Source: Thioploca ingrica
Lineage (GTDB): Bacteria > Pseudomonadota > Gammaproteobacteria > Beggiatoales > Beggiatoaceae
Assembly (NCBI GenBank): GCA_000828835.1
Contig: AP014633.1
Coordinates: 4,030,001-4,094,000 of the forward strand
DNA: 64,000 nucleotides
Reading direction: 5' to 3'
The position numbers were made by a program, and so were the translations under genes. Shown here in pieces: positions 1 to 17,672 of the stretch. Every line of letters starts with the position of its first letter. Position 1 is the first letter of the stretch. The notes beneath the pieces were generated by a model, which worked only from the letters and a program-made list of their open reading frames with translations, was not told where the DNA came from and searched no databases.

Positions 1-3000
1 CAGCAAAGGCTTCGGCTAACCGATCAGCAAGTGCTTTCACGAGGATACTGTTGTAGTCATCTTGGGCTTGTTCAAACCGCGCGACGTGTTCCTCCAATTT
101 AATGCCAGTGGTAACCGCAAAGGCACCGATATAATCAGCGAGACCACTCGTTTTGGGCGCAATATTGTCGGCGAGACACAGATTGGGATTCGCTGGCGTT
201 TTAACCAGTTGTTGACGGAGATGATGTAAGACAGTTCTCACGGTAGAGCGACTGTCATCATTATAGATTTCAATATCATCCTCATTGATAGTATTCGCCG
301 GGAAGAAACCGATGACGGCGTTGGCTCTTAACCAGTGTTCATTGATAAGGGTATCCAGCATTTGTTGCGCATCATTGTAAAGTTTACGTGCTTCTTCACC
401 CACTTTATCATCTTCAAGCAATTGGGGAAAGCGTCCCGGTAAGGACCACACTTTGAAAAACGGGTTCCAATCAATTCGTTGGCGTAATTCAACCAGCGGG
501 TAATCCGTCAAAACTTTCACGCCTAAGAAAGTGGGTTTGGGTGGAGTATAATTACGCCAATCAATCGCTAATTTATTCGCTCTGGCTGCTGCTAAAGTCG
601 ATTTGCGTTGGATTTTTTGACTCGCACGTTGTTCGCGTAATTGCGCATATTCGGTAGCGATTTGTTGCGTATAATTGGCTTTTAATTCCGCAGACAGTAA
701 ACTTTGCGCGACACCCACTGCCCGTGAAGCATCGAGAACATAAACCACCGGTTGGCTATAATTCGGCGCAATTTTAACCGCCGTATGCACTTTAGACGTC
801 GTGGCACCACCAATCATGAGTGGAATTTTAAAACCTTGGCGTTCCATTTCACTGGCAACCTGAACCATTTCATCTAACGAAGGCGTGATTAGTCCTGATA
901 AACCAATGATTTGACAGTGTTGCTCGCGGGCAGTTTTTAAAATAGTTTCCGCCGGAACCATAACCCCTAAATCAATGATTTCAAAGTTATTGCATTGTAA
1001 AACCACCCCCACAATATTTTTACCAATATCATGGACATCGCCTTTAACAGTGGCGAGTAAAATTTTACCATTACTGCTGCTCGCACCACTTTCTCCCTTT
1101 TCGGCTTCAATGTAGGGCATTAAATGGGCTACTGCTTTTTTCATGACGCGGGCGGATTTTACCACTTGGGGTAAAAACATTTTCCCGGCACCAAATAAAT
1201 CACCCACCACATTCATTCCCGCCATCAGTGGACCTTCGATCACTTGTAGCGGTCGAGGAAATTGTTGCCGAGCGGCTTCGGTATCAGCTTCAATATAATC
1301 GGTAATTCCCTTAACCAGCGCATATTCAAGGCGTTTTTCTACGGGGGCATCACGCCAGGCCAAATTTTGTTGAGTTTCTTGACTACCCCCTTCGCCTTTG
1401 TATTTATCTGCAATTTCTAGCAATCTATCGGTGGCGTCAGCACGACGGTTAAGAATCACCTCGATCACTCTTTCGCGCAATTCTGTGGGTAAATCTTCAT
1501 AAATCGCCAATTGTCCCGCGTTGACAATGCCCATATCCAGACCCGCTTGGATAGCATGATAAAGAAATACGGAATGAATCGCTTCTCGAACCGGATTATT
1601 ACCGCGAAATGAGAACGATACGTTAGAAACCCCGCCAGAAATTAAGGCATGTGGCAAGTTTTGTTTGATTTCGCGAATCGCCTCAATAAAATCAACGGCA
1701 TAATTATTATGCTCTTCAATGCCGGTGGCGACCGCAAAAATATTCGGATCAAAAATAATATCTTCCGGCGGGAAACCGACTTGTTCAGTCAAAATGCGAT
1801 AACAACGGCTACAAATAGACACTTTACGTGCTTTCGTATCCGCTTGCCCTTGTTCATCAAACGCCATCACAATCACGGCGGCACCATAACGGCGAACTAA
1901 TTTAGCCTGTTCAATAAATTTGGCTTCCCCTTCTTTAAGGCTGATAGAATTAACGATGGGTTTACCTTGAATACATTTGAGTCCTGCCGCTAATACTTCC
2001 CATTTAGACGAGTCAATCATAATGGGCACCCGCGCAATATCCGGTTCTGCGGCTAACAAATTTAAAAATCGAACCATAGCGGCTTTGGAATCCAGCAGCC
2101 CTTCATCCATATTGATATCAATAATTTGGGCGCCACTTTCGACTTGTTGACGGGCGACGTCTAACGCGGCTTCATAATTTTCTTCTTTAATTAATTTTTT
2201 GAAACGTGCTGAACCGGTTACATTGGTGCGTTCACCGACGTTAACAAATAAAGAATCGGTTGCAATCGTACAGGGTTCTAAACCAGCGAGACGACAAGCC
2301 GGGGGAATCTGCGGTCGTTGCCGAGGGGGGTAAATCTCAACCGCCGTTTTAATAGCCGCAATATGTTCCGGTGTCGTGCCACAACAACCCCCAATCACGT
2401 TGAGTAAACCACTTTTCGCCCATTCACCAATTTCTTTCGCCATCGCTTCTGGCGTTTCGTCATAACCACCGAATTCATTAGGCAAACCGGCATTGGGATA
2501 AGCGGAAACATACGTGTCCGAAATTCTTGATAATTCTGCAATATATTGCCGTAATTCACGCGCACCGAGCGCACAATTTAAACCAATCGTTAAGGGTTGC
2601 GCATGGCGTAATGAACACCAAAACGCTGCCGTCGTTTGCCCGGACAAAGTGCGACCGGAAGCATCGGTAATCGTCCCCGATAGCATAATCGGCAACCGCA
2701 ACTGATGATCCTCAAAATATTGCTGAGCAGCAAACACCGCCGCTTTCGCATTTAAGGTATCAAAAATCGTTTCAATCAGCAGTAAATCAGCACCACCATC
2801 CACTAATCCACGAATGGCTTCATAATAAGCGTCTACTAATTGCTCAAAAGTCGTATTCCGATAACCGGGATCGTTGACATTAGGTGAAATGGAAGCAGTT
2901 CGATTGGTTGGACCGAGCGAACCCGCCACCAAGCGCGGTTTATCTGGCGTTTGCGCTGACATGGCATCAGCCACTTGACGAGCAAGCTGAGTCGCAGCCC

Positions 3001-3319
3001 AATTCATTTCATAAACCAAATCCTCCAGGTGATAATCGGCCATGCCGATTCGCGTGCTGCTAAAAGTATTTGTTTCGATGATGTCAGCACCAGCGGCTAA
3101 ATATTGGGTATGAATTTCTTTAATAATCTGGGGTTGAGTAATTGACAACAGATCATTATTACCTTTTAAATCACTTTCCCAATGTTTAAAGCGTTCGCCA
3201 CGATAATCGGCTTCGGTTAAGCGATATTTTTGAATCATGGTGCCCATGGCACCGTCAAGAATAAGAATCCGTTGTTCTAACAGGGATTGCAACAGGGCAA
3301 AGCGGTCAATATTGGACAT
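1..3319 (-). CDS. metH: Cobalamin-dependent methionine synthase, C-terminus cut by the window edge
   Basis: Cytoplasmic enzyme that moves the methyl group of 5-methyltetrahydrofolate to homocysteine through methylcobalamin. The reading frame is open from the ATG at 3319 to position 1, about 1106 residues. The usual family length is about 1230, so roughly the last 120 residues of the reactivation domain lie outside. Visible in order: the homocysteine domain with its zinc ligands (a GGCCGT motif near residue 308), the pterin-binding barrel, the cap and B12 domain with DVHDIGKN near residue 760 (the His that ligates cobalt), and the start of the AdoMet activation domain ending in DRLAEAFA. It reads away from the M48 gene at 3481. 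No riboswitch was recognised in its leader. Identification is firm. Confidence 0.97.
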
Positions 3320-3480
3320 AGCACTTCCTATTTGCTTTTAGATTGACTTACAGTACAGTATGGTTGTGTACCATGAAAGATAAGTAGGAGAATGGGTGAT
3401 ATATTATCAAAAAAAGCGTTGGGTAGGTTGATTTGAGCTAAAATGAAATTTTGAGTTATTTATCGTTAGGAAATTAAATT

Positions 3481-4266
3481 ATGCTAAAGAAAATCGTCAT
3501 CCTATTTATTACCATTCTATTTACGAGTTGTGTTACCTCGCCCCTTGGACGTAAGCAATTGATACTGATGCCCGCTGATCAAGTTGATACCATGGGGGTT
3601 GAAGCATTTAAGACTGTCAAAGAAAAAACGCCTTTAGAAACGAATTCTCAAGTCAATCATTATGTCACTTGTGTCGCCAATGCGATTATCCAAGTGAGCA
3701 ATAGCACCGTGAAAAGTTGGGAAATCGCTGTATTTCGAGATGAATCTGCCAATGCTTTTGCTTTACCGGGCGGTAAAATTGGAGTCAATACCGGTTTATT
3801 GAAGGTAGCCGAAGATCAAAATCAATTAGGTACGGTCATTGGACATGAAGTTGCGCATGTCTTGGCTAATCATAGTAATGAACGAGTTTCGCAAGAATAC
3901 GCGGTCCAACAAGGACTAGAATTGATTCAAGCGGTAACGAATGTCCAAACGCAAATGGGTCAAACGGTGATGGGTTTATTAGGAGTCGGTGCCCAATTTG
4001 GGATTTTATTACCTTATAGTCGGGTACATGAAAGTGAAGCGGATATATTAGGCTTAAATTTAATGGCAACGGCTGGTTTTGATCCACGAGCAAGTATTAC
4101 GCTGTGGCAAAATATGGAACGTGCTGGTGGCTCTGAACCCCCTGAATTTCTTTCGACTCATCCTTCTCACAACACTCGCATAAATGATCTAGAAAATGCG
4201 ATGAATAACGCCTTATCTTTATTCCAACAAGCTCAATCGGCCGGTAGAAGGCCAAATTGCCAATAA
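3481..4266 (+). CDS. M48-family metalloprotease, lipoprotein
   Basis: Predicted periplasmic or outer-membrane-anchored zinc protease of 261 residues. The N-terminus is a lipoprotein signal with lipobox LFTSC (acylated Cys17). The M48 zinc motif HEVAH is at residues 122-126, and the third ligand Glu lies in HESEAD about 60 residues on. The region just before it (FALPGGKIGVNTGLL) is typical of the LoiP/YcaL/BepA group. It lacks the TPR tail of BepA, so it is closer to the short LoiP-like type; a role in envelope protein quality control is inferred from the family. The ATG at 3481 directly precedes the signal peptide. It stands alone between metH and a repeat-filled gap. Confidence 0.88.
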   Translation: MLKKIVILFITILFTSCVTSPLGRKQLILMPADQVDTMGVEAFKTVKEKTPLETNSQVNHYVTCVANAIIQVSNSTVKSWEIAVFRDESANAFALPGGKIGVNTGLLKVAEDQNQLGTVIGHEVAHVLANHSNERVSQEYAVQQGLELIQAVTNVQTQMGQTVMGLLGVGAQFGILLPYSRVHESEADILGLNLMATAGFDPRASITLWQNMERAGGSEPPEFLSTHPSHNTRINDLENAMNNALSLFQQAQSAGRRPNCQ

Positions 4267-4638: not shown

Positions 4639-6339
4639 CTACCCGACTGGATTGTCTTCCATAACTAGACTGAGACACGGACTGGCTAAATCCGAAAGGT
4701 TAGCTATCACAGCAACTGGGTTAGACCGGTAACTAAGCGGTAATTCGACGCAAAAAGTGGCACCCTGTCCCAGTGTGCTTTCGCACCAGACTTTGCCATT
4801 CATGGCTCCAATTAGCTTGTTAACAATGAATAACCCCAAGCCATTGGAATGCTCACCACCGGTAGGCTGAGCACTCAAGCGATTAAATTTGCCAAATAGT
4901 TTTTGCTGATCAGCAACGCTTAATCCAGGCCCTTGGTCTTGTACGTCGCAGCGCACGGTATACTCAGAGGTGGTGTAAAGTTTAACCGTAATCGCTTTGC
5001 CGAGGGGAGAGTATTTTACGGCGTTAGATACCAAATTCTCGAGAATCTGATGAAGCGTGTTTTTGTCTACCCATACTTTGAAGTGGTTAGAGGCGGTATC
5101 GATAAAACAGCTTAGGGTAAGATTTTTAGCGGCCGCTGCTGCCTGATAATGTCGTACGACTTCTTGCAAGATCGGCTCGAAATTAATCTCCTCAAAGTTC
5201 AAGTTAAATTTACCGGATTCAATGGCATTAACATCCAACAGATTGATAATTAATACAAACATTCTATCGGCAATACGTCGGATTTGTTCCGCCATGCTAC
5301 TGATTTCTGCACTGGTGTCGGATTCTGGCAAGTCCTCGACCAATTCCTGAATATATTCAGCCAATCCTTTGATCCCAGACAGTGGATTTTTTAAATCGTG
5401 GGCCACAATGCCAAGAAATTCGTTTTTCTCCCGATTAAGGCGGTTGAGTTCCTGATTTTTGCCTTCAATTTCTTTACTGTAGCGAACTGCTGCCTGCTTA
5501 GCTTCCTCTTCTTGAACAAGACGTATCTGTTTAATCAGTACTTCCTGTTGCACGGTTTCCAGTCGTGACAGTGAATCTGATAATTTACCAATCATGCCGT
5601 TGAAGGATTCTTGCAATACGTTCAATTCACTGCGAGCAGTTTGCTGTTCCTCTATCGCGAGTAAGGGCATAAGATTGACCAGATCAACCTGCTGCACCGC
5701 TCGGGTCAGGCGATACAGCGGCTGGCGTAGTAGGCGGTAGCCGAACCAGAGAAAGAATGCCCACAACAGCATCGTTTTAAGGATTGCGCTAACGATGACC
5801 AGCACATATTCTAGCCATAACTCCTTGAAAACTAGCTCAGTGGTAGAATAGAGCGTCACTTTACCAACGGGTTCTGGATTATTCCCATCGTGATAAAACA
5901 GTTTGAAGGTATGCCAGATAAAATGGTGCGCTTCGTGTTGACTGCGAGGCTGAGTTTGTGGCGAGGTAGAATTAAGCGTCTGGTTAGCTTCATCATTTTC
6001 CAGCGTCTTGCCAACACTAGCCAAAACTTTGTCAGTATCGTCCCGCACGGTAATCCCGGCCACATGCCTAATTTTGACCAACCCACTAAGAATGGTTTCT
6101 AAACTTTTTTGATCAAACTCCCACAGTGAACCGGCTAGACTATCGCCAAAACTTTCTTGGTAGAACTGTAGTTCCGACAGAATGCCATTTTTGGTATCGT
6201 AGTATAGAAATACCATTTGTACCAGGGTAATCACGACAGCAGCCAGTAAGTAGAAAAAAAACACTATTTTTAACAGCCGAGTAACAATTGAATGCTGTAA
6301 GGGAATATCCATAAGTAATGACGATTCAGTAGGGTGCAT
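4639..6339 (-). CDS. Membrane sensor histidine kinase
   Basis: Inner-membrane sensor kinase of 566 residues. A transmembrane helix at about residues 22-46 is followed by a periplasmic segment of about 130 residues containing a GSLWEFD motif, a second helix at about 178-205, a HAMP-like linker and a coiled coil (about 255-308). The HisKA box FLGIVAHDLKNPL has the phospho-accepting His314. A HATPase_c domain at about 420-535 shows N and G boxes (ENLVSNAVKYS, DQGPGLS, GLGLFIVNKL). There is no receiver domain and no response regulator nearby, so its output partner is unknown. The annotated ATG could instead be Met10 (MDIPLQ). The solute-binding protein gene just upstream, in the same direction, may supply its periplasmic ligand partner. 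Confidence 0.9.
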   Translation of the reverse strand: MHPTESSLLMDIPLQHSIVTRLLKIVFFFYLLAAVVITLVQMVFLYYDTKNGILSELQFYQESFGDSLAGSLWEFDQKSLETILSGLVKIRHVAGITVRDDTDKVLASVGKTLENDEANQTLNSTSPQTQPRSQHEAHHFIWHTFKLFYHDGNNPEPVGKVTLYSTTELVFKELWLEYVLVIVSAILKTMLLWAFFLWFGYRLLRQPLYRLTRAVQQVDLVNLMPLLAIEEQQTARSELNVLQESFNGMIGKLSDSLSRLETVQQEVLIKQIRLVQEEEAKQAAVRYSKEIEGKNQELNRLNREKNEFLGIVAHDLKNPLSGIKGLAEYIQELVEDLPESDTSAEISSMAEQIRRIADRMFVLIINLLDVNAIESGKFNLNFEEINFEPILQEVVRHYQAAAAAKNLTLSCFIDTASNHFKVWVDKNTLHQILENLVSNAVKYSPLGKAITVKLYTTSEYTVRCDVQDQGPGLSVADQQKLFGKFNRLSAQPTGGEHSNGLGLFIVNKLIGAMNGKVWCESTLGQGATFCVELPLSYRSNPVAVIANLSDLASPCLSLVMEDNPVG

Positions 6340-6408: not shown

Positions 6409-7203
6409 TTATTTCCAATCGGCAACACCATATTTCTTCAAGATTTCAGCTAACTTTCCGGTGCTCCTTAGTTCGGTTATACTTTCAGTGAGTAGCTGCG
6501 CATACTCGGCAGATTGCGGTTGTGCTGGAGAAAAAGCGACATACACATTTTCTCGGTAAGCCACACCGGCAGGGATAAATTCATTGGGGGTGCTAGTACT
6601 AAACAAGTGATACTCGAATACCGCTTTACTTTCGATTAAGGCGTCGATGCGACCTTTTTGGAGTTTTTTGATATTTTGCGCCAGCGCCGTATCGCCGGAC
6701 AGGATTTGCACTTTTTGCCGATCGTGCTGGTGCGGCAGGATATAGTTTTGTTGGAGATTGCCATAAGAATAATCTTGAATCACACCAAGCCGAATTTGTG
6801 CTAGGGAAGCCAAATCTTGATATCGCCAAGCGTTAGTTTTCAACACAAAAAAGGTATGTGCTGCTTGACCCTGCTCTTGCGCGGGAAACACAAAATCCGG
6901 CGTTTCTTCCTTACCTGCGCCGATGATGCCATGATATTTGCCTTGCCGCACTTCGTTGATAGCGCGTGTCCAGGGCACGATTTTGTAATTAACCGTATGG
7001 CCGGCTTTAGCTAACCCATATTGGGCGATTTCTACCATGAAGCCGGGGTTAGCGTTACCTGGTGCGCAGTTATAGGGACACCACTCATCTGCCACCAAGC
7101 TAATTTCGTTGGCACCGACGTTACCAAAGGTAATGCTCAAGATATTAACTAACATCAGGATAAAATGATTTTTGCCCATAAATCTTCGTCCGGTTGCGCT
7201 CAT
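6409..7203 (-). CDS. Family-3 extracellular solute-binding protein (amino-acid type)
   Basis: Secreted periplasmic protein of up to 264 residues. The hydrophobic signal starts at Met9 (MGKNHFILMLVNIL, ATG at 7179), which may be the real start; the longer start at 7203 has no better ribosome site. The mature part has the SBP_bac_3 pattern: early WCPYNC, then GFMVEIAQ, a hinge-crossing PWTRAINEVRQGKYHGIIGAG segment, and a C-terminal RSTGKLAEILKKYG helix. No permease or ATPase genes adjoin it. It lies 69 bp upstream of the sensor kinase in the same direction, which suggests a sensing role rather than transport (inference). Confidence 0.85.
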   Translation of the reverse strand: MSATGRRFMGKNHFILMLVNILSITFGNVGANEISLVADEWCPYNCAPGNANPGFMVEIAQYGLAKAGHTVNYKIVPWTRAINEVRQGKYHGIIGAGKEETPDFVFPAQEQGQAAHTFFVLKTNAWRYQDLASLAQIRLGVIQDYSYGNLQQNYILPHQHDRQKVQILSGDTALAQNIKKLQKGRIDALIESKAVFEYHLFSTSTPNEFIPAGVAYRENVYVAFSPAQPQSAEYAQLLTESITELRSTGKLAEILKKYGVADWK

Positions 7204-7639: not shown

Positions 7640-10600
7640 TTATTGTCTCTCACCTAAACCAAAAAAATTCTCAATCCGGTTGAGGAAACGCTTATAAACC
7701 GCTTCGGTTTCAATTTCAATATCATGTTGCTCATGGATTTGAGATATCGTCGATAACTGTCGTTGTGTTAAGACCTTACTAATCATTTCAGATACTTCCG
7801 GTTGTTCTTCTAACAGCGGCTTAATATCGGTTTTCGTTAACTCAAACAAGTAAGTATCAACTAATGCCACCACCGTGGCTGTTCTATCTTCACCGGTCAA
7901 CAGTGCCATTTCGCCAAAGAAGTTTCCAGCACCTAAGCGTGCTACTTCTTTGTTTTTTCCTTCTTCGGTCAGTACTTGGACACTGACCACCCCTTCCACA
8001 ATAATAAACAAGGAATTTCCTCTATCTCCTTGTTTAACAATGGTTTCATGTGCTTGAAATCGTTGGCGACCGATTCTTTCACTCAAGTAAAATTTCGCCT
8101 TTTCCGAAAAAGGTTTAAAAATATCGATTTCTTGCAATAAAGTAATCGGTTTAGTGGCTTCTTCACCACCCCGTTCTTTAATGCCTTTAAACCAATGAAT
8201 TTCTTGACGTTGAACTGCTGGGGTAATACCGGCACGATTAAGATGAAACCAAACCCGGGTCCAGACATCCTCTAAAATAGTGAACTTACTGGCATAATCA
8301 TCTGCACAAAAGGCAATCCAATAACTGGCTGCCCATTCATTGATCCCAGTAAAAATAACGACCGGTTCGGGATCCTTAAGTACTTTCTCAGCGGAGAGAA
8401 GGGCATCGAGCAAAATTTTCTTCACCCTGGCTGGGGGATGCATCGGATGAACGTAAACCGTTGGCCATAACCAATAAGTATCATCGGGATAACAAAAATT
8501 AAGAATAGCTGATTCCGAAGCGATACTGTTGGGGATACTTAAGATACAATCAGCCCGGTTTCTTATCCGGGTGGTTCGCCAAGTAATATCGACGATTTCT
8601 CCTTCTTCATAGGAACCAATTTTTACCCAATCACCAATTCTAAAAGGTCTTTCTATATTAATGGCAATTCCGGAAAAGATATTAGAAATATTAATTTGAA
8701 TAGCCAAACCAATAATCATCGCAATCACTCCGGAAGTGGCTAAGATACTGGTCAATTGTTGTTCATAGACAAAAGCAATGATGCCAACTACGGCTAGAAA
8801 GTAAATTATAAAGGCGAGAAATAACCGCACAATATTTGGAATGAGACGACCGGTTTTTTCTTCTATCGGGGTCCAAATAAAGCTTTCTGAGGCTAAATTG
8901 AGCAGAAAAGCGGGAATAAGCCACCACAAGATATCAAAAATTCGAATAATGGATTTTATTTCATAAATATCGAGTTGGTCAGCGAGTCCTTTTATTAAGA
9001 GAACCTCACCGGATAACAATAAAATAAAAGCTAAAATCGCTTGTAAAAACCAGACTAATTTAGATAAGTGCCTAAATTTTTTGGAAAAAATATTTAAGAC
9101 TAAAATCACGATAATACTTGAGATCAGGAGGTTATAAGCATATCGTTCTGGAATAGTTCCGCGCAAAGTAAATTCGTTTTTCTTAATTTCAATCCCAGCG
9201 TTAAAGCGGGAATATTCAATCGTTCCACCTTGAACATTTAAATAATTCGGATCACCTAAAGAAAATTTCTTAGCCACATCTTGAAAGAACCGCACTTGGT
9301 CAAGCAACCAGCCACTGGCTGGACTGAGAACTTGAGTTTCCTTCATAGTCTTTAATGGATCGCTTCCCATTCCCAATAAATCAGTCACATAAATCAAGTT
9401 ATTGCGGGTAAAATAACGGTGATGAAATTGAACTCCTAAAATATGTTGTTTATAAGCATATTGACTGGTTAGAAAATCCGCCCGAAACCGACTTCTGACT
9501 TTATAAATATGATATTGAATTCTATCTTTCTCTTTGCTATCAATCAGTTTCATGATACCTTGGTTGGCTTTATCCAGGTTGGTTTTACCCTTAGCCGAAT
9601 CTCGTTGCATTTCCGGTTTATTATCAACAAATTCCATTTCACCGATACCATTAGAAAATTCAATTTGTTGTGGCTTAAATTCGGTTTCACTTTTACTATT
9701 AGCGTTCCCGGTTGCTGATAGAGTCGCTTCGGTTTTTCTGTCACCTTGAAACCGAAACCATAAATCAAAATCTAAATTAAAGGTTAGCGTTTTAAGGTCA
9801 AAGTCACTAATTTCATTTATTTTAATCCCCGTATAGACCACGTTAGTTTTATACATGTACTTGTTATCAATAAGTAGCACTCTTTCATCTTGTACAGCTT
9901 GATCAAGATCACTTATTTCATTGGGATTCCTCACGACCTGAAATTGGGTTAAAGCGGAAATCAATTGTTTATTTTTATAGACACCAATCGCGACCGGTTT
10001 TTGAGCATTGCGATTCTCATCAAAATAATTGAAGCCGGTGGTTCCTTCTAACGCATCATGGCTATTGGTATAACTGGCTAACTTGTCACGAATTTTCTGG
10101 CGATCAGTGGCTAACGTGGTGGGTTCGCCTTTAATGCCAGCTTCACTGATCGCTTTGACTAAAATCATAGCGGTATCATACGCATAGGCGGCTGACCAAT
10201 CGGGGTCATTATGATATTTTTTTTGGTAGGCATCTTTAAAGAGTTGAGCTTTTTCATTAGCCGTATCAAACAGCAAGGGAGTAGCAACATAAATATCATT
10301 GGTATAATGACCCGGATTCGCCTTTTCTTCCGCAAAGTCATTAAACCCATTAACAAAGGTTTGCTCGGAAAAACTGGATTCACCCAGAATCGGATTAGTA
10401 ATCCCAGCCGATTTAATCAATTTGACTAATTCAACTCCCTCACTGGCTTGAACGGATAAGAAAATGGCACCCGCTTGATCTTTATTGTTCTTTAGTTGCT
10501 CAACGAATTTACTAAACTCTTCTTTTTGTTGAGGATTATTAGGTTCAAATGCCCATTCGTTTTGAACTTGCATTTGTAATTGGTTCGCGGTTTCTTTAAA

Positions 10601-11179
10601 TACTTTTGCCAAATAAGCACCATAAGATGCGGTTTCATGAATAATGGTGACTTGATTCAATTTCAGGATTTTATTGACATAATAGGCAAGAAATTGACCC
10701 GAATCCTTGGTTGTATAAATATTTCTAAAATACCATTCATTCCCTTTAGTAACACCGGGATCCACCGAACCAGGGGTAATGGCTGGAATACCATATTTTT
10801 TATAGGTTTCACCCCCTTTAGTGGAACAACTACTATACCAATGTCCTATCACGGCTAGCACTTGGTTCTCAGCGACGATTCGCTCAGCTTCATCTTTAGC
10901 CGTTGTGGCGCACTCATTTTTGTCATCAAAGCGAATTAATTCAATTTTTTTACCCTTGAGTTTATCTCTTTTTTTATTGATTTCTTCAAAATAAAGTTCC
11001 ACTGCTCGCGCCATAATTTGACCCGCTGTCGGTTCGGTTTCACTTTTACCTTGTTCTGACATGGGACCAATAAAAGCAACGTAGATCGTTTCTTCTTTAG
11101 GTTTGAAATAGCTTTGGTAAAGTGCCCCAATTAAAACGACTAAAATCAGCAGACCTAACATGATAACGTTGAGTTTCAT
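7640..11179 (-). CDS. Receptor-channel fusion: periplasmic binding domain + pLGIC-like domain + MscS pore + cNMP-binding domain
   Basis: An 1179-residue inner-membrane protein. Order: N-terminal signal anchor (about 1-22); type-1 periplasmic binding domain of the branched-chain amino-acid receptor family (about 30-425; IGPMSEQG, VIGHWYSSCS, AITPGS, IYVATP); a beta-rich region (about 440-660) whose VVYTGIKINEI, FNLDFDLWFRF, SGWLLDQVRFF and EYSRFNAGIEIKK segments resemble the extracellular domain of pentameric ligand-gated channels; several helices (about 680-800); the MscS pore and beta domain (about 806-900; IGLAIQINISNIFSGIAI, RPFRIGDWVKIG); then a cyclic-nucleotide-binding domain (about 1016-1135) with FGEMALLTGEDRTATV. 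The first and last parts are firm. The middle assignment is inference: the Pro of the pLGIC Pro-loop is replaced (YAYKQ). An ion channel gated by an external ligand and a cytoplasmic nucleotide is inferred. It is a paralogue of the gene just upstream. Confidence 0.85.
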   Translation of the reverse strand: MKLNVIMLGLLILVVLIGALYQSYFKPKEETIYVAFIGPMSEQGKSETEPTAGQIMARAVELYFEEINKKRDKLKGKKIELIRFDDKNECATTAKDEAERIVAENQVLAVIGHWYSSCSTKGGETYKKYGIPAITPGSVDPGVTKGNEWYFRNIYTTKDSGQFLAYYVNKILKLNQVTIIHETASYGAYLAKVFKETANQLQMQVQNEWAFEPNNPQQKEEFSKFVEQLKNNKDQAGAIFLSVQASEGVELVKLIKSAGITNPILGESSFSEQTFVNGFNDFAEEKANPGHYTNDIYVATPLLFDTANEKAQLFKDAYQKKYHNDPDWSAAYAYDTAMILVKAISEAGIKGEPTTLATDRQKIRDKLASYTNSHDALEGTTGFNYFDENRNAQKPVAIGVYKNKQLISALTQFQVVRNPNEISDLDQAVQDERVLLIDNKYMYKTNVVYTGIKINEISDFDLKTLTFNLDFDLWFRFQGDRKTEATLSATGNANSKSETEFKPQQIEFSNGIGEMEFVDNKPEMQRDSAKGKTNLDKANQGIMKLIDSKEKDRIQYHIYKVRSRFRADFLTSQYAYKQHILGVQFHHRYFTRNNLIYVTDLLGMGSDPLKTMKETQVLSPASGWLLDQVRFFQDVAKKFSLGDPNYLNVQGGTIEYSRFNAGIEIKKNEFTLRGTIPERYAYNLLISSIIVILVLNIFSKKFRHLSKLVWFLQAILAFILLLSGEVLLIKGLADQLDIYEIKSIIRIFDILWWLIPAFLLNLASESFIWTPIEEKTGRLIPNIVRLFLAFIIYFLAVVGIIAFVYEQQLTSILATSGVIAMIIGLAIQINISNIFSGIAINIERPFRIGDWVKIGSYEEGEIVDITWRTTRIRNRADCILSIPNSIASESAILNFCYPDDTYWLWPTVYVHPMHPPARVKKILLDALLSAEKVLKDPEPVVIFTGINEWAASYWIAFCADDYASKFTILEDVWTRVWFHLNRAGITPAVQRQEIHWFKGIKERGGEEATKPITLLQEIDIFKPFSEKAKFYLSERIGRQRFQAHETIVKQGDRGNSLFIIVEGVVSVQVLTEEGKNKEVARLGAGNFFGEMALLTGEDRTATVVALVDTYLFELTKTDIKPLLEEQPEVSEMISKVLTQRQLSTISQIHEQHDIEIETEAVYKRFLNRIENFFGLGERQ

Positions 11180-11374
11180 AATTTTTTACCCACCTTTGGT
11201 GCGTGCGTAATTTTCATAATTCCATCATTAAAAATTTTAACGGCAGAGCGTTGAGGTGACTATCTATTTGAGCTATCACTTTTAAGTTGGGTGATAGGAA
11301 TAAATAATAAACCATCACAGTCAGTTTTAAAAAAGATTGGGTATAATTCATGGTTATTGTTAGTTATCAAATGG
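11180..11374. other. Gap between the two receptor-channel paralogues
   Basis: This 195-bp spacer separates two same-direction paralogues. A scan of its frames shows no remnant of the cyclic-nucleotide-binding domain that the upstream paralogue lacks. A CACCTTTGG-like stretch just before the start at 11179 could contribute to ribosome binding, but the match is weak. Confidence 0.4.
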
Positions 11375-14374
11375 CTACCCTTGGTTAACCAGGGAATGAG
11401 TAGATAAAAATGGAGCCGCTCGAAATATCTCTTCAGGTTGTTCAAAGGGAGGTGTTTTGCCACTCGGAGCCGGATCACTGTTTTTTTCCCCTTTAAAAAT
11501 ATAAATTTCTTGTCGCATGACAGCGGGGGCAATATCAGCACGATTTAAATGGAACCAAACACGAGTCCAAACACTTTCTAAAATAGAGTATTTATCCGCA
11601 TAATTATCCGCACAAAATGCGATCCAATAAGTAGCGGCCCATTCATTGATCCCGGTAAAGATAATCACTGGCTCCGGATCGTGAAGAATTTTGTCTGCTG
11701 AAAGTAAAGCATCTTGCAAAATTTTTTTAACCCGAAAAGGCGGATGTTTCGGATGGATATAAACCGTTGGCCATAACCAATATACTTTTTCTGGATAATA
11801 AAAGTTAACGATGGCGGCTTCAGCGGCTTGGGAATTAGGAATACTGAGCATACAACCATCTCTTCTTTTCAGCCGAGTGGCTCGCCAATTGATATCGATG
11901 ACTTCTCCTTCATCAAATTCACCAATTTTAATCCAATCACCAATTCTAAAAGGACGATCCATATTAATAACAATCCCAGAAAAAACATTGGAAATATTAA
12001 TTTGAATAGCTAAACCAACGATCATGGCTAAAACACTCGAGGTTGCTAACAAGCTAGTAAACTGTTGTTCATAGACAAATACGGTGATTCCAACGATAGC
12101 TAATAGATAAATAAACAGGGCAAAAAAATGCCGGATAATGTTAGGTATCGCCCCAACAGTTTCTTGAATGGGTGTCCAAATAAATCGTTCTAAAGCTTCA
12201 GTAATTAAAAAAGCCGGAATTAACCACCATAATATATCAAAAGTCCGGATAATATGTTTCATTTGGTAAGGATTGGTTTTTTGAGCCAACCAATCGGCAA
12301 AGATTATCTCCCCAGATAATAGCCATAAGAAAGCAAAAATAACTTGAAAAAACCAAATGTATTTAGAAAGTTTTTTCTTACTACTCGCCGCGACCGCTAA
12401 AAATAAAAATAAGGCGCCACTCAATATCATTATATCGTGAGCATATTTATAAGGAATACTTCCGCGGAGAGTCAATTGATCCTGTTTGAGTTGAATAGCC
12501 GCATTAAATCGGGAATATTCAACAATCCCTTCCGAAGCATTAAGATGTTGTGGATCACCGGCAGAATACTCTTTAGCAATATCGGGAAAAAACCAAACTC
12601 GATCAATTAACCAACCTTCCGCCGGACCAAGCACATGGGTTTTACTCAGATATTGGGCTAATGATTTTTCTTGATTGAGTCCCATTCCTAACATATCGGT
12701 GACATAAATAAGATTATTGCGCGTTAAAGTACGATGGCGAAACCCAATCCCAACAACATGTTTTTTATAACTATAATAATTAGCCAGAAAATCTGCACGA
12801 AAATCGCCTTTAATTCGATAGACACAGTAAACAATTTGATCTGGCGTTTCTTTACAGTCTTCTATTGGCTTGGCTAATTGTGATCTCAATTTTTGTGGAT
12901 CAACGGCGTTGGTAAACTGAATGTCGGTCGGATGAAAGTCACGTCCTTTAAGAAAGCGAAACCATAACTTGAAATCTAAATTATAAACCAGTTGTTTCAT
13001 ATCAATGTGACTAATCTCATTCACTTTTATCCCCACATAAACGACATGAGTTTTATACATATACTGATTATCCATAACCAATACTTGCTCATCTTGAAGA
13101 GCTTGTTGAATATCAACAATTTCATTGGGATTACTCAAAACGTGGAATTGAGTTAAAGCCGAAACTAAGTTTTTCTGTTTATAAATTCCTAACGAAACCA
13201 GTTTTTGCGCATCCCGATAATTATCAAAATAGTTAAACCCGGTGACGCCTTTAACCGCATCATGAATATTAGTAAAACTGGCCAAAGTATCTCGCAGCTT
13301 TTGTCTGTCTATCGAGAGGCGGTTAGGTACTCCTTCAATATTGGCTTTCTTCAGTGCTTCAACGAGCACCATCGCCGTATCATAAGCATACGCTGCTGAC
13401 CAATCCGGTTCCTCATTATATTGCTCTTTATACGCTTCCAAAAACAACTGGGCTTTTTCATTAGCCGTATCAAATAATAACGGTGTGGCAACGTAAATAT
13501 CATTACTATAATAACCTGGATTTTCTCGTTCTATCGGGTCATCATCAAAACCATTCCGAAAAGTTTCTTCGGAAAAAGATGACGGACCAATCAAAGGCGT
13601 TTTGATCCCGGCTTCTTTAATTAACTTAACCAGTTTGACACCTTCGCTGGCTTGCATCGCCAGTAGAATAACACCGGCTTTATCTTTAGCTACCTTTAAT
13701 TGTTCAACAAAGTGTTGAAAAACGGCATCTAAATTTTTATCCTGATTATAATATTGCCACTTATTTTTAATGGTTATAGCCAGTGATTGCGCTTCTTTAG
13801 CAAAGGTTTCTGCAATATAAGAACCATAATCTGCTGTTTCATGGATAATGGTAACCTGATCCTGTTTAAACACTTTCTTAATATAGTGCGCTAAAAAATG
13901 GCTAGTGGCTTTATCATTATAAATATTCCTAAAGTACCACGGATTACCTTGAGTCACTTTAATGTTACTTGAACCGGGCGTAATGGCAGGTATTTGATGC
14001 GCTTGATAAATTTTACCACCACTAATAGAAGCAGAACTATACCAGTGACCAATAACCGCGATAAATTGATCTTTATTAACAATAGCTAATGCTTGTTGCC
14101 TCGCTTGTTCAGGATCATTTTGATCATCAAATGCTTGAAGAATAATCTGTTTACCATTAATACCGCCTCTTTGATTAATATAATCAAAATAAAGTTGAAT
14201 CGCTTGCGTCATTAATTTTCCCGCTGCCGCACCTTTACCTGATAAAGGGCCAACAAAAGCAATAGCTACAGCGTTTCGGTATTTAAAATAGTTATTATAA
14301 GCTATCCAACCCAAGGTGACTAAAACAACGATACTTAACAAAAAAAGTTTTATTTTCATCTCAATATTGCCCAC
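11375..14374 (-). CDS. Receptor-channel fusion paralogue without the nucleotide-binding domain
   Basis: A 999-residue paralogue of the 1179-residue protein, with the same order: signal anchor, type-1 periplasmic binding domain (about 30-425; FVGPLSGKGAAAG, VIGHWYSSAS), pLGIC-extracellular-like region (about 440-625; VVYVGIKVNEI, YNLDFKLWFRF, EGWLIDRVWFF, EYSRFNAAIQLKQ), membrane helices, and MscS pore and beta domain (about 775-870; VGLAIQINISNVFSG, RPFRIGDWIKIG). Its C-terminus ends about 20 residues after a segment (EQPEEIFRAAPFL) that aligns with the linker leading to the nucleotide-binding domain of its neighbour (LLQEIDIFKPFS). That domain therefore seems lost here or gained there. The two genes probably arose by tandem duplication and then diverged widely. 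Identity of the outer domains is firm; the middle domain is inferred. Confidence 0.85.
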   Translation of the reverse strand: MGNIEMKIKLFLLSIVVLVTLGWIAYNNYFKYRNAVAIAFVGPLSGKGAAAGKLMTQAIQLYFDYINQRGGINGKQIILQAFDDQNDPEQARQQALAIVNKDQFIAVIGHWYSSASISGGKIYQAHQIPAITPGSSNIKVTQGNPWYFRNIYNDKATSHFLAHYIKKVFKQDQVTIIHETADYGSYIAETFAKEAQSLAITIKNKWQYYNQDKNLDAVFQHFVEQLKVAKDKAGVILLAMQASEGVKLVKLIKEAGIKTPLIGPSSFSEETFRNGFDDDPIERENPGYYSNDIYVATPLLFDTANEKAQLFLEAYKEQYNEEPDWSAAYAYDTAMVLVEALKKANIEGVPNRLSIDRQKLRDTLASFTNIHDAVKGVTGFNYFDNYRDAQKLVSLGIYKQKNLVSALTQFHVLSNPNEIVDIQQALQDEQVLVMDNQYMYKTHVVYVGIKVNEISHIDMKQLVYNLDFKLWFRFLKGRDFHPTDIQFTNAVDPQKLRSQLAKPIEDCKETPDQIVYCVYRIKGDFRADFLANYYSYKKHVVGIGFRHRTLTRNNLIYVTDMLGMGLNQEKSLAQYLSKTHVLGPAEGWLIDRVWFFPDIAKEYSAGDPQHLNASEGIVEYSRFNAAIQLKQDQLTLRGSIPYKYAHDIMILSGALFLFLAVAASSKKKLSKYIWFFQVIFAFLWLLSGEIIFADWLAQKTNPYQMKHIIRTFDILWWLIPAFLITEALERFIWTPIQETVGAIPNIIRHFFALFIYLLAIVGITVFVYEQQFTSLLATSSVLAMIVGLAIQINISNVFSGIVINMDRPFRIGDWIKIGEFDEGEVIDINWRATRLKRRDGCMLSIPNSQAAEAAIVNFYYPEKVYWLWPTVYIHPKHPPFRVKKILQDALLSADKILHDPEPVIIFTGINEWAATYWIAFCADNYADKYSILESVWTRVWFHLNRADIAPAVMRQEIYIFKGEKNSDPAPSGKTPPFEQPEEIFRAAPFLSTHSLVNQG

Positions 14375-15417: not shown

Positions 15418-16716
15418 ATGAATTTATCCATACCTCCAACAATGGCAACCACTTCATTATTTGTTTTATCCCGCTATGATGCCTTACAACAATTTCGTAC
15501 TGTTCGTCAAGACAGTGAGAATTTGTGTAAACCACTTAAAATTGAAGATTATGTGATTCAAACCAACCCGCAAGCCAGTCCGGCTAAATGGCATCTGGCT
15601 CATGTCACTTGGTTTTATGAAACCTTTATTTTGACTGTTTTTTCTCAAAATTACCGCGAATTTCATCCCCGTTTTCGGTATTTGTTCAATTCCTATTATG
15701 AACAGATCGGTGAATTTTTTCCTCGTCCACAACGAGGCTGGTTATCGCGCCCTACGGTAGAGGAAATCTATCGCTATCGAGCCTATGTGGATGAACAGAT
15801 GGTACAATTGATTGAATCGGCTAATGAGAAAGATTGGGTCAATATCAATGCCCGCCTAGTCATTGGACTCCATCACGAACAGCAACATCAAGAATTGTTA
15901 TTGACTGATATTAAGTACAATTTGGCTGTTAATCCGTTACGCCCGGCTTATCGTGAAGATTTGCCTACGACGCCATGCCGAACCGCACCAAAACTTAATT
16001 GGCTTGAATACTCCGGTGGCTTAGAATCTATCGGTTATGACGGTGAAGATTTTGCCTATGATAATGAATCTCCCCGACATCAGGTCTATGTGCCACCTTT
16101 TCGATTAGCTTCACGGTTGGTGACTAATGGCGAGTATTTAGAATTTATAGCAGCAGGTGGCTATGAACATCCAGCATTATGGTTATCAGATGGTTGGAGT
16201 ACCCTTCAACAAGGCAGTTGGCAAACCCCGTTGTATTGGGAAAAAATTGACGGACAATGGTGGCAAATGACACTGGGCGGTATGCGTCCGCTGATTGTTG
16301 ATGAACCGGTGTGTCATGTCAGTTATTATGAAGCCGATGCCTTTAGCACTTGGAAAAATAAACGGTTGCCCACTGAGACCGAGTGGGAAATTGCTGCCCG
16401 CGATTTGCCTCGGCGTGGTAATTTGCGTGACAGTGGTTTCTTACAACCCATAGTAGCAGAGGAAAATCACGAGTTATTGCAAATGTATGGCGATGTTTGG
16501 GAGTGGACCCAATCGCCTTATATACCCTATCCCGGTTATCGTCCCCAACCCGGTGCTTTAGGAGAGTATAATGGTAAATTTATGTGTAACCAATTGGTGT
16601 TACGAGGTGGTTCTTGTGTGACACCCGCTAATCACATTCGCCCCACGTATCGCAACTTTTTTTATCCTCATGAACGTTGGCAATTTAAAGGATTTCGTCT
16701 TGCGGAGGATTTATGA
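15418..16716 (+). CDS. egtB: Ergothioneine biosynthesis sulfoxide synthase EgtB
   Basis: Non-haem iron enzyme that couples hercynine (N-trimethyl-histidine) with a cysteine-type thiol and O2 to give the sulfoxide precursor of ergothioneine. The 432-residue protein has an N-terminal DinB-like helical domain and a C-terminal formylglycine-generating-enzyme-like domain (GDVWEWTQSPY, LRGGSCVTP, RPTYRNFFYP). Iron ligands are visible as His59 or His62 in KWHLAHVTW and the HxxxHxE motif His153-His157-Glu159. The ATG at 15418 follows a GGAG ribosome site. It overlaps egtD by 4 bp (ATGA), a translationally coupled pair. No egtE-type lyase or egtA is in the window. Whether the thiol substrate is cysteine or gamma-glutamylcysteine cannot be told. 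Confidence 0.93.
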   Translation: MNLSIPPTMATTSLFVLSRYDALQQFRTVRQDSENLCKPLKIEDYVIQTNPQASPAKWHLAHVTWFYETFILTVFSQNYREFHPRFRYLFNSYYEQIGEFFPRPQRGWLSRPTVEEIYRYRAYVDEQMVQLIESANEKDWVNINARLVIGLHHEQQHQELLLTDIKYNLAVNPLRPAYREDLPTTPCRTAPKLNWLEYSGGLESIGYDGEDFAYDNESPRHQVYVPPFRLASRLVTNGEYLEFIAAGGYEHPALWLSDGWSTLQQGSWQTPLYWEKIDGQWWQMTLGGMRPLIVDEPVCHVSYYEADAFSTWKNKRLPTETEWEIAARDLPRRGNLRDSGFLQPIVAEENHELLQMYGDVWEWTQSPYIPYPGYRPQPGALGEYNGKFMCNQLVLRGGSCVTPANHIRPTYRNFFYPHERWQFKGFRLAEDL

Positions 16717-17672
16717 GCGAACCCACTATACACTTTTATGATCTTCACCCCCCCTTGACAGATCTAAAAGCAGAAGTTCTAACCGGCTTATCCGGCCAAC
16801 CTAAAACCATTCCACCTAAATTCTTTTATGATGAATACGGTTCGCAACTTTTTGCTCAAATTACAGAACTACCAGAATATTACCTCACTCGTACCGAAAT
16901 AGCTATTCTCCAAGAACACGGAGAAGAAATGGTTTCGCTATTAGGAAATGAATGTTTGTTGGTGGAATTGGGTAGTGGTAGTAGCCAAAAAATCCGTCTG
17001 TTACTTGACGCGCTACAACCCGCAGTTTATATGCCGATAGATATTTCTAAAAAACATTTATGGCAATCAGTGCAAATGCTGGCTATCGATTATCCGGATT
17101 TAGAAATACATGCGGTTTGTACAGATTATTCGGGTCAGTTTCATTTGCCATATCACCCTGATAATAAACCCAAAGCGGCTTTTTTTCCCGGTTCGAGTAT
17201 TGGCAATTTTGATCCACCTCATGCACAAGAATTGTTACAGCAAGTGGCGCAATTATTGGGATCGGACAGTACTTTATTAATTGGCGTGGATCTCAAAAAA
17301 GACCCCCAACGTCTCAACGCGGCCTATAATGATGCTACTGGGGTTACGGCGGCTTTTAATCTCAATTTGCTGACACGCATCAACCGCGAATTAAATGCTA
17401 ACTTTGAATTATCACGTTTTGAACATCAAGCCTTTTATAATGAGAAACCGGGGCGGATGGAGATGCACTTAGTCAGCAATACGCCACATGAAGTCAAGGT
17501 TGGTGGGCAAACTTTTGAATTCGTCACCGGTGAAAATATCCACACTGAAAACTCTTACAAATATACGGTGGCACAATTTCAGAATCTTGCCAATGCAGCG
17601 GGTTTGCAACCGGAGCAAGTGTGGATAGATCCCGCTGAATTATTTAGTGTTCATTGTTTGCGAGTGAGGTAA
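16713..17672 (+). CDS. egtD: L-histidine N-alpha-methyltransferase EgtD
   Basis: SAM-dependent enzyme that trimethylates histidine to hercynine, the first step of ergothioneine synthesis. The 319-residue protein is the normal family length. It shows the family opening PKFFYDEYGSQLFAQIT and PEYYLTRTE (residues 36-62), the SAM-binding LVELGSGSSQK (83-93), PGSSIGNFDP and GVDLKKDP in the catalytic domain, and a C-terminal YKYTV and HCLRVR end. It starts inside the last codon of egtB, so hercynine maker and user are co-translated. Ergothioneine is a thiol antioxidant, in keeping with life at oxic-sulfidic interfaces (inference). Confidence 0.94.
   Translation: MSEPTIHFYDLHPPLTDLKAEVLTGLSGQPKTIPPKFFYDEYGSQLFAQITELPEYYLTRTEIAILQEHGEEMVSLLGNECLLVELGSGSSQKIRLLLDALQPAVYMPIDISKKHLWQSVQMLAIDYPDLEIHAVCTDYSGQFHLPYHPDNKPKAAFFPGSSIGNFDPPHAQELLQQVAQLLGSDSTLLIGVDLKKDPQRLNAAYNDATGVTAAFNLNLLTRINRELNANFELSRFEHQAFYNEKPGRMEMHLVSNTPHEVKVGGQTFEFVTGENIHTENSYKYTVAQFQNLANAAGLQPEQVWIDPAELFSVHCLRVR

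Follow-up and report, generated by a model that had tools for sequence, protein, structure and literature searches.

A pLGIC-type extracellular domain joined to an MscS-family pore in tandem genes of Thioploca ingrica, a putative ligand-gated channel

Two paralogous genes lie on the minus strand of the window (the whole 64,000-nucleotide stretch of Thioploca ingrica DNA analysed here), P2 (gene 2) upstream of P1 (gene 1), with 195 bases between them. Both reading frames are open and complete. P1 (7640–11179, −) encodes 1179 amino acids arranged as a membrane anchor, a type-I periplasmic binding domain (PBP), an extracellular domain (ECD) of the kind found in pentameric ligand-gated ion channels (pLGICs), five transmembrane helices, an MscS region and a cyclic-nucleotide-binding (cNMP) domain. 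P2 (11375–14374, −) runs from anchor through PBP, pLGIC-type ECD and transmembrane part to MscS without a cNMP domain, and measures 999 amino acids from a GTG or 994 from an ATG. The ATG of P1 is preceded by the ribosome-binding-like AAGGTGGG; for P2, the sequence makes the ATG at 14359 the more likely start, because the GTG sits within a ribosome-binding-like AGGTGG. A sequence-only reading of this DNA had described two adjacent paralogues of 1179 and 999 residues, each with a PBP, a β-rich domain and an MscS pore. The reading frames and Pfam matches bear this out and every motif it quoted is located in P1 or P2, but the cNMP domain of the longer protein had gone unmentioned.

The source genome is a single 4.81-Mb contig with one more MscS-type copy, the third, which is 1030 amino acids long and not linked to the pair; no copy of pLGIC type is present among the matches in this genome. 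Side-by-side MscS-type genes occur in 15 genomes, this one included. Because the tandem pair recurs in this way, and because the one-contig genome has a third copy elsewhere, the arrangement is not a product of chance or of an assembly join. In nearly all tandem pairs with a complete downstream gene, the upstream member lacks the cNMP domain and the downstream member has it, and in a tree of the ECDs the upstream-type and downstream-type genes are largely sister groups (support 87 and 83). It is plausible that the pair is an old duplication kept in place and, because it stayed in place, that P2 (without cNMP) and P1 (with cNMP) may form a mixed channel. Promoter- and terminator-like sites around the pair, sought as operon signals, do not exceed the shuffled expectation. 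Translations of the neighbouring genes show an SBP_bac_3-like periplasmic protein (6409–7203, −) and a sensor histidine kinase (4639–6339, −) downstream of P1, and adjoining EgtB-like and EgtD-like genes (15418–17672, +) that suggest ergothioneine synthesis. None of the flanking SBP_bac_3-like, histidine kinase, M48, EgtB and EgtD genes recurs next to the pair at the loci compared in relatives.

P1 begins with a membrane helix (residues 3–24; 11108–11173, −) that appears in the full-length model and is predicted to act as a signal anchor. Its LivJ/LivK-type binding domain follows at residues 31–402 (9974–11089, −; Peripla_BP_6, 5.2e-36; Foldseek to LivK/LivJ, E 4e-22) and that of P2 at residues 36–377 (13244–14269, −; Peripla_BP_6, 3.5e-44), with the motif VIGHWYSS at 110–117 and 107–114, respectively. 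The pLGIC-type ECD spans residues 428–690 of P1 (9110–9898, −), as assigned from fold, profile and phylogenetic evidence, and residues 426–653 of P2 (12416–13099, −), as assigned from family profiles. It contains VVYTGIKINEI (P1, 447–457; the P2 equivalent is VVYVGIKVNEI, 444–454), LDFDLWFRF (P1, 469–477), GWL (P1, 623–625; P2, 587–589) and YSRFNA (P1, 656–661; P2, 620–625). The Cys/Pro-loop position is occupied by YAYKQ in P1 (574–578) and YSYKK in P2 (534–538); in P1 the loop YAYKQH (574–579; 9443–9460, −) lacks the Pro and Asp that are invariant in pLGICs.

The model of P1 predicts five membrane helices (8651–9148, −; residues 678–701, 703–733, 738–776, 782–804 and 809–843), the fifth being the MscS pore helix. 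The MscS β-domain (residues 831–895; 8495–8689, −; MS_channel_2nd, 1.1e-15) and C-terminal domain (916–985; 8225–8434, −; MS_channel_3rd, 5.2e-5, above the cut-off) follow, and the P2 pore region lies at residues 734–966 (11477–12175, −; MS_channel_2nd, 1.4e-18). IQINISN (P1, 827–833; P2, 790–796) and RPFRIGDW (P1, 844–851; P2, 807–814) are found in both proteins. The β-domain and pore-helix region of the MscS superfamily are thus present in the pair, and the solved MscS structure 2vv5 is matched at 1.9e-13 (phmmer). The P1 cNMP domain (residues 1039–1125; 7805–8065, −; cNMP_binding, 2.3e-24) has its phosphate cassette, FGEMALLTGEDRTAT, at residues 1088–1102.

No Pfam or NCBIfam family covers the middle domain of P1 and P2. 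An ECD profile built from MscS-type proteins only returned zero matches among PDB sequences at E 5, and the same profile with pLGIC-type rows added reached chains of GLIC type with E no better than 0.004. Such sequence-to-PDB searches alone are no proof of a link, and fold searches and intermediate families were therefore used. Relatives in other Thiotrichaceae (PBP-pLGICs, about 750–870 amino acids) share the PBP and the middle domain and continue into a pLGIC-type membrane domain; Neur_chan_memb (Pfam) is above cut-off in one of them (1.4e-7), and their profile matches GLIC over both ECD and membrane domain (6.7e-17). The P1 middle domain is about 25–34% identical to those of the members with a pLGIC pore (with BLAST E values as low as 4e-37 against a small database), and hhalign joins the MscS-type and PBP-pLGIC-type ECDs at 100% and 1.9e-57. 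The MscS-type profile by itself finds proteins of about 370 amino acids, one set in each of two genomes of Pseudomonadota (E 1.2e-12 and 3.4e-10, calculated per genome). One of these, L148, matches a GLIC–GABA-A chimera (2.7e-12) and ELIC (3e-10) in the PDB over most of its length; in profile–profile comparison, the MscS-type ECD aligns with five plain bacterial pLGICs of about 370 residues at 99.2% and 1.4e-19.

Fold prediction agrees. An AlphaFold model of P1 residues 425–705 (pLDDT 86, pTM 0.78), from an alignment that took in pLGIC-type rows, matches the ECDs of AChBP, ELIC, GLIC, sTeLIC, DeCLIC and GABA-A receptors (Foldseek E 4e-9, probability 1.0), and a structure aligner gives Z 15 against sTeLIC and ELIC with about 173 residues aligned at 3.7–4.5 Å. 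As a control, full-length P1 was modelled from 42 rows of MscS-type sequences only (pLDDT 80, pTM 0.60). The best 50 Foldseek matches of this full-length model were to the binding domain only, so the ECD was compared by strand positions; the strands recur at the same places (440–461, 466–478, 506–508, 543–551, 554–566, 578–587, 595–599, 624–639 and 653–667). Eight ECD columns, F47, W50, N86, Y135, F141, D176, G218 and S233 in domain numbering, are invariant in both pore types. The predicted folds, the sequence profiles and the full-length relatives together show the middle β-sandwich to be homologous to the pLGIC ECD. This is the kinship that the sequence-only reading had proposed, and the unrelated fold that it had named as the opposing outcome did not appear. 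The competing explanation, an unrelated β-rich or Cache/MscK-type periplasmic domain that resembles a pLGIC ECD, could draw on the missing Pro-loop Pro and Asp and on the MscS-type domain taken alone, which lacks a Pfam, NCBIfam or PDB sequence match; fold, profile and phylogenetic results all tie the domain to pLGIC ECDs and already contradict that explanation, which we consider extremely improbable.

Kinship in the ECD does not make P1 and P2 pLGICs, because their Cys/Pro-loop is without the defining Pro and Asp. Neither protein matches Neur_chan_memb or a profile of the relatives' pLGIC membrane domain; the MscS pore comes after the ECD. Jaiteh et al. (PMC4795631) single out the Pro-loop proline as the sole absolutely conserved pLGIC residue and describe a salt bridge between the loop Asp and the pre-M1 Arg. 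This triad of Pro, Asp and Arg is complete in all 22 members with a pLGIC pore and in none of the 88 with an MscS pore (single residues occur there as Pro in 7, Asp in 4 and Arg in 2 of the 88), counts in which related sequences each score as one and which could stem from one change inherited by every MscS-pore member. One Desulfonema limicola protein retains YPID. The counts therefore show, at the level of sequence, an association with pore type rather than many independent losses. Absence of the triad while other ECD columns stay invariant is what would be expected if, in line with the role described for it (PMC4795631), it serves only the pLGIC membrane domain.

In the ECD tree, members with the two pore types part on one branch (SH-aLRT 100, 1 change). 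The tree is unrooted and does not itself give the direction of the swap; the five plain pLGICs keep all three triad residues, from which we infer that the pLGIC-pore forms came first. The PBP tree is less clean, taking 3 changes to separate the pore types and having long branches. The C-terminal tails divide in the same manner: SBP_bac_1 follows the pLGIC pore in 5 of 22 proteins and the MscS pore in 0 of 88, and a cNMP domain is found in 45 of 88 MscS-type and 0 of 22 pLGIC-type proteins. With four membrane helices the C terminus should lie outside in the pLGIC type, and with the five helices of the model it should lie inside in the MscS type. The kinds of tail observed are in line with both expectations.

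When 84,980 species genomes were scanned for the MscS-type ECD, 75 loci emerged, nearly all of which read PBP–ECD–MscS, with or without cNMP, when classified by profiles built here. Thiotrichaceae among the named hosts are Thioploca, Parabeggiatoa, Halobeggiatoa and Thiomargarita. Among the Desulfobacterota are Desulfamplus, Desulfonema magnum (a complete chromosome) and two Desulfoluna isolates, and further hosts are Magnetococcales, two Leptospirales metagenome-assembled genomes (MAGs) and one MAG each from Cloacimonadota and SAR324; these two single cases could be binning errors. The architecture for which a search of other Thiotrichales had been suggested is thus present there and well outside that order. 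In broad samples, an ECD match was obtained in 14 of 369 genomes from the class of the source organism (with a profile of both types) and in 41 of 398 from its phylum (with the MscS-type profile at a looser cut), both counts including some plain or PBP-type pLGICs. The distribution of hosts fits an earlier proposal (PMC6390638) that filamentous sulfur oxidisers and Desulfonema have exchanged genes horizontally.

Several loci depart from the common layouts. Some PBP-pLGICs (L034:112–3657 and 8359–11970, L036:981–4547 and L037:627–4142) carry SBP_bac_1 after the membrane domain and so have binding proteins at both ends, and another (L018:889–3762, +) bears an N-terminal DUF697. In L136, an MscS-type gene is split by a single stop codon into PBP–ECD and MscS–cNMP parts (1459–3645 and 16–1455, −), through decay, error or a true two-protein form.

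The candidate inputs can be approached from both sides of the membrane. The binding domains of P1 and P2 are of LivJ/LivK type by Peripla_BP_6 and by their top Foldseek matches. In MscS-type proteins the Ser of the GHxxS motif is kept in 70 of 74 and the Thr of a second motif in 49 of 74, with Val at the latter position in P1; we take these positions to be the LivJ ligand site. The α-amino-acid site is thus retained in part, which weighs against the channel model favoured below. The sequences make an amino acid or something similar a plausible ligand. A gammaproteobacterial protein of 776 amino acids (L134:3922–6249, +), with a signal-like N terminus, reads ECD–MscS–cNMP without a PBP, and the binding domain is therefore not always needed. 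On the cytoplasmic side, 39 of the 45 cNMP domains tested, that of P1 among them, have an intact phosphate-cassette motif, and the genome holds 16 class III cyclase domains.

From sequence and models, we moderately favour the view that P1 and P2 form a hybrid ligand-gated channel of MscS type, in some members also gated by cyclic nucleotides. A bacterial PBP-pLGIC would have contributed its extracellular half, a LivJ-type PBP and a β-sandwich, and this half would have come to sit on an MscS-family pore; the simplest course is a single ancient fusion, whose direction is deduced. A periplasmic small molecule, probably amino-acid-like, would close the binding domain, and the β-sandwich would relay this closure to the first membrane helices and through them to the MscS pore. 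Members with a cNMP domain would receive a second input from cytoplasmic cAMP or cGMP, so that signals from the two sides together would set whether the channel opens or closes, and it would pass ions or small solutes. We infer every functional step of this scheme, including the ligand class, gating direction, conductance and mixed assembly, from the sequences.

Two other accounts of the same architecture deserve weight. The pore is clearly related to MscS, its pore helix and RPFRIGDW region are intact, and the bCNG relatives (MscS plus cNMP) include a member that responds to tension, according to a paper cited in PMC4560390; these points suit an osmotic safety valve opened by tension, in which the PBP–ECD and cNMP domains only shift the threshold. 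We regard such a valve as possible yet doubtful, as the extracellular modules have been kept for long in many lineages, suggesting that ligand input exceeds decoration. Alternatively, the protein could be a non-conducting receptor that uses its MscS part as a membrane scaffold and signals to cytoplasmic partners. A protein from a MAG of Parabeggiatoa HSG14 (L098:2678–6052, +) does place the PBP–ECD module on a P-loop NTPase (weak AAA/NACHT matches) rather than on a pore, but it is a single case, and 30 relatives searched for the NTPase tail did not show it again, a negative that carries little information. The MscS pore region is, moreover, among the most conserved parts of these proteins (76–96% identity among P1-type genes, against 47–89% for the ECD), which argues for a working pore and leaves the scaffold improbable.

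In the favoured ligand-gated channel, the two halves come from families with different natural subunit numbers. Homologues of MscS have seven chains per PDB entry as a rule, so we lean to seven subunits, with the MscS core setting the number and the pLGIC-type domain adapting; the ECD may no longer keep its inter-subunit binding or form a ring. Non-pentameric pLGIC assemblies have been reported, with a tetrameric 5-HT3A receptor described in PMC11480441. We judge it about as likely as not that the pair represents a ligand-gated channel class of its own. In such a class a pLGIC-type module would gate a pore of an unrelated superfamily, and either the sensor ring would have turned seven-fold or the pore five-fold.

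Known systems resemble P1 and P2 in part. To our knowledge, bCNGs carry no pLGIC-type or PBP extracellular module, and descriptions of pLGIC ECDs (nicotinic, GABA-A, glycine and 5-HT3) place them on the four-helix pore of their family or, in AChBP, by themselves, never driving another pore. In MscK and MscM, too, an MscS pore follows a large periplasmic region at the N terminus, but their models match P1 and P2 in the pore region only, with most of the MscK model unmatched, and the outer part of P1 and P2 is a PBP and a pLGIC-type sandwich. P1 shares with bCNGs, channels in which an MscS pore is followed by a cNMP domain at the C terminus (Caldwell 2010, as referenced by PMC4560390), the order of pore and cNMP domain and an intact phosphate-cassette motif, whereas P2 has no cNMP domain. 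With the PBP-I-bearing bacterial pLGICs (Tasneem et al. 2004, PMC549065) and GLIC, ELIC, sTeLIC and DeCLIC, the pair shares the PBP-I-to-ECD order outside the membrane, with homology in both domains. Those PBP-I fusions, as Tasneem et al. describe them, keep the ECD and four-helix core; P1/P2-type proteins have instead a five-helix MscS pore, an inside C terminus and neither the Pro-loop Pro and Asp nor the pre-M1 Arg. A limited search of the open literature found no fusion of a pLGIC ECD to MscS, in keeping with the earlier impression that such a module on an MscS pore was unfamiliar, and Jaiteh et al. (PMC4795631) use the words 'fusion' and 'MscS' nowhere in their main text. Each part belongs to a known family, and the joining of this sensor to an MscS pore appears undescribed.

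The domain is unrecognised by the family libraries searched, which may explain why it was overlooked. The pLGIC ECD and the MscS pore form a natural, widely conserved pairing and, if the proposal is true, the nicotinic-receptor type of sensor is separable from its own pore in nature. The absence of the triad where the pore differs amounts to an experiment done by nature, one that can help to tell which residues couple the ECD to the pLGIC membrane domain. With these proteins, whether such a sandwich can function outside five-fold symmetry becomes a question that cryo-EM can address directly. Collectively, the findings suggest control of ion or solute flux by external ligands in giant sulfur bacteria and sulfate reducers.
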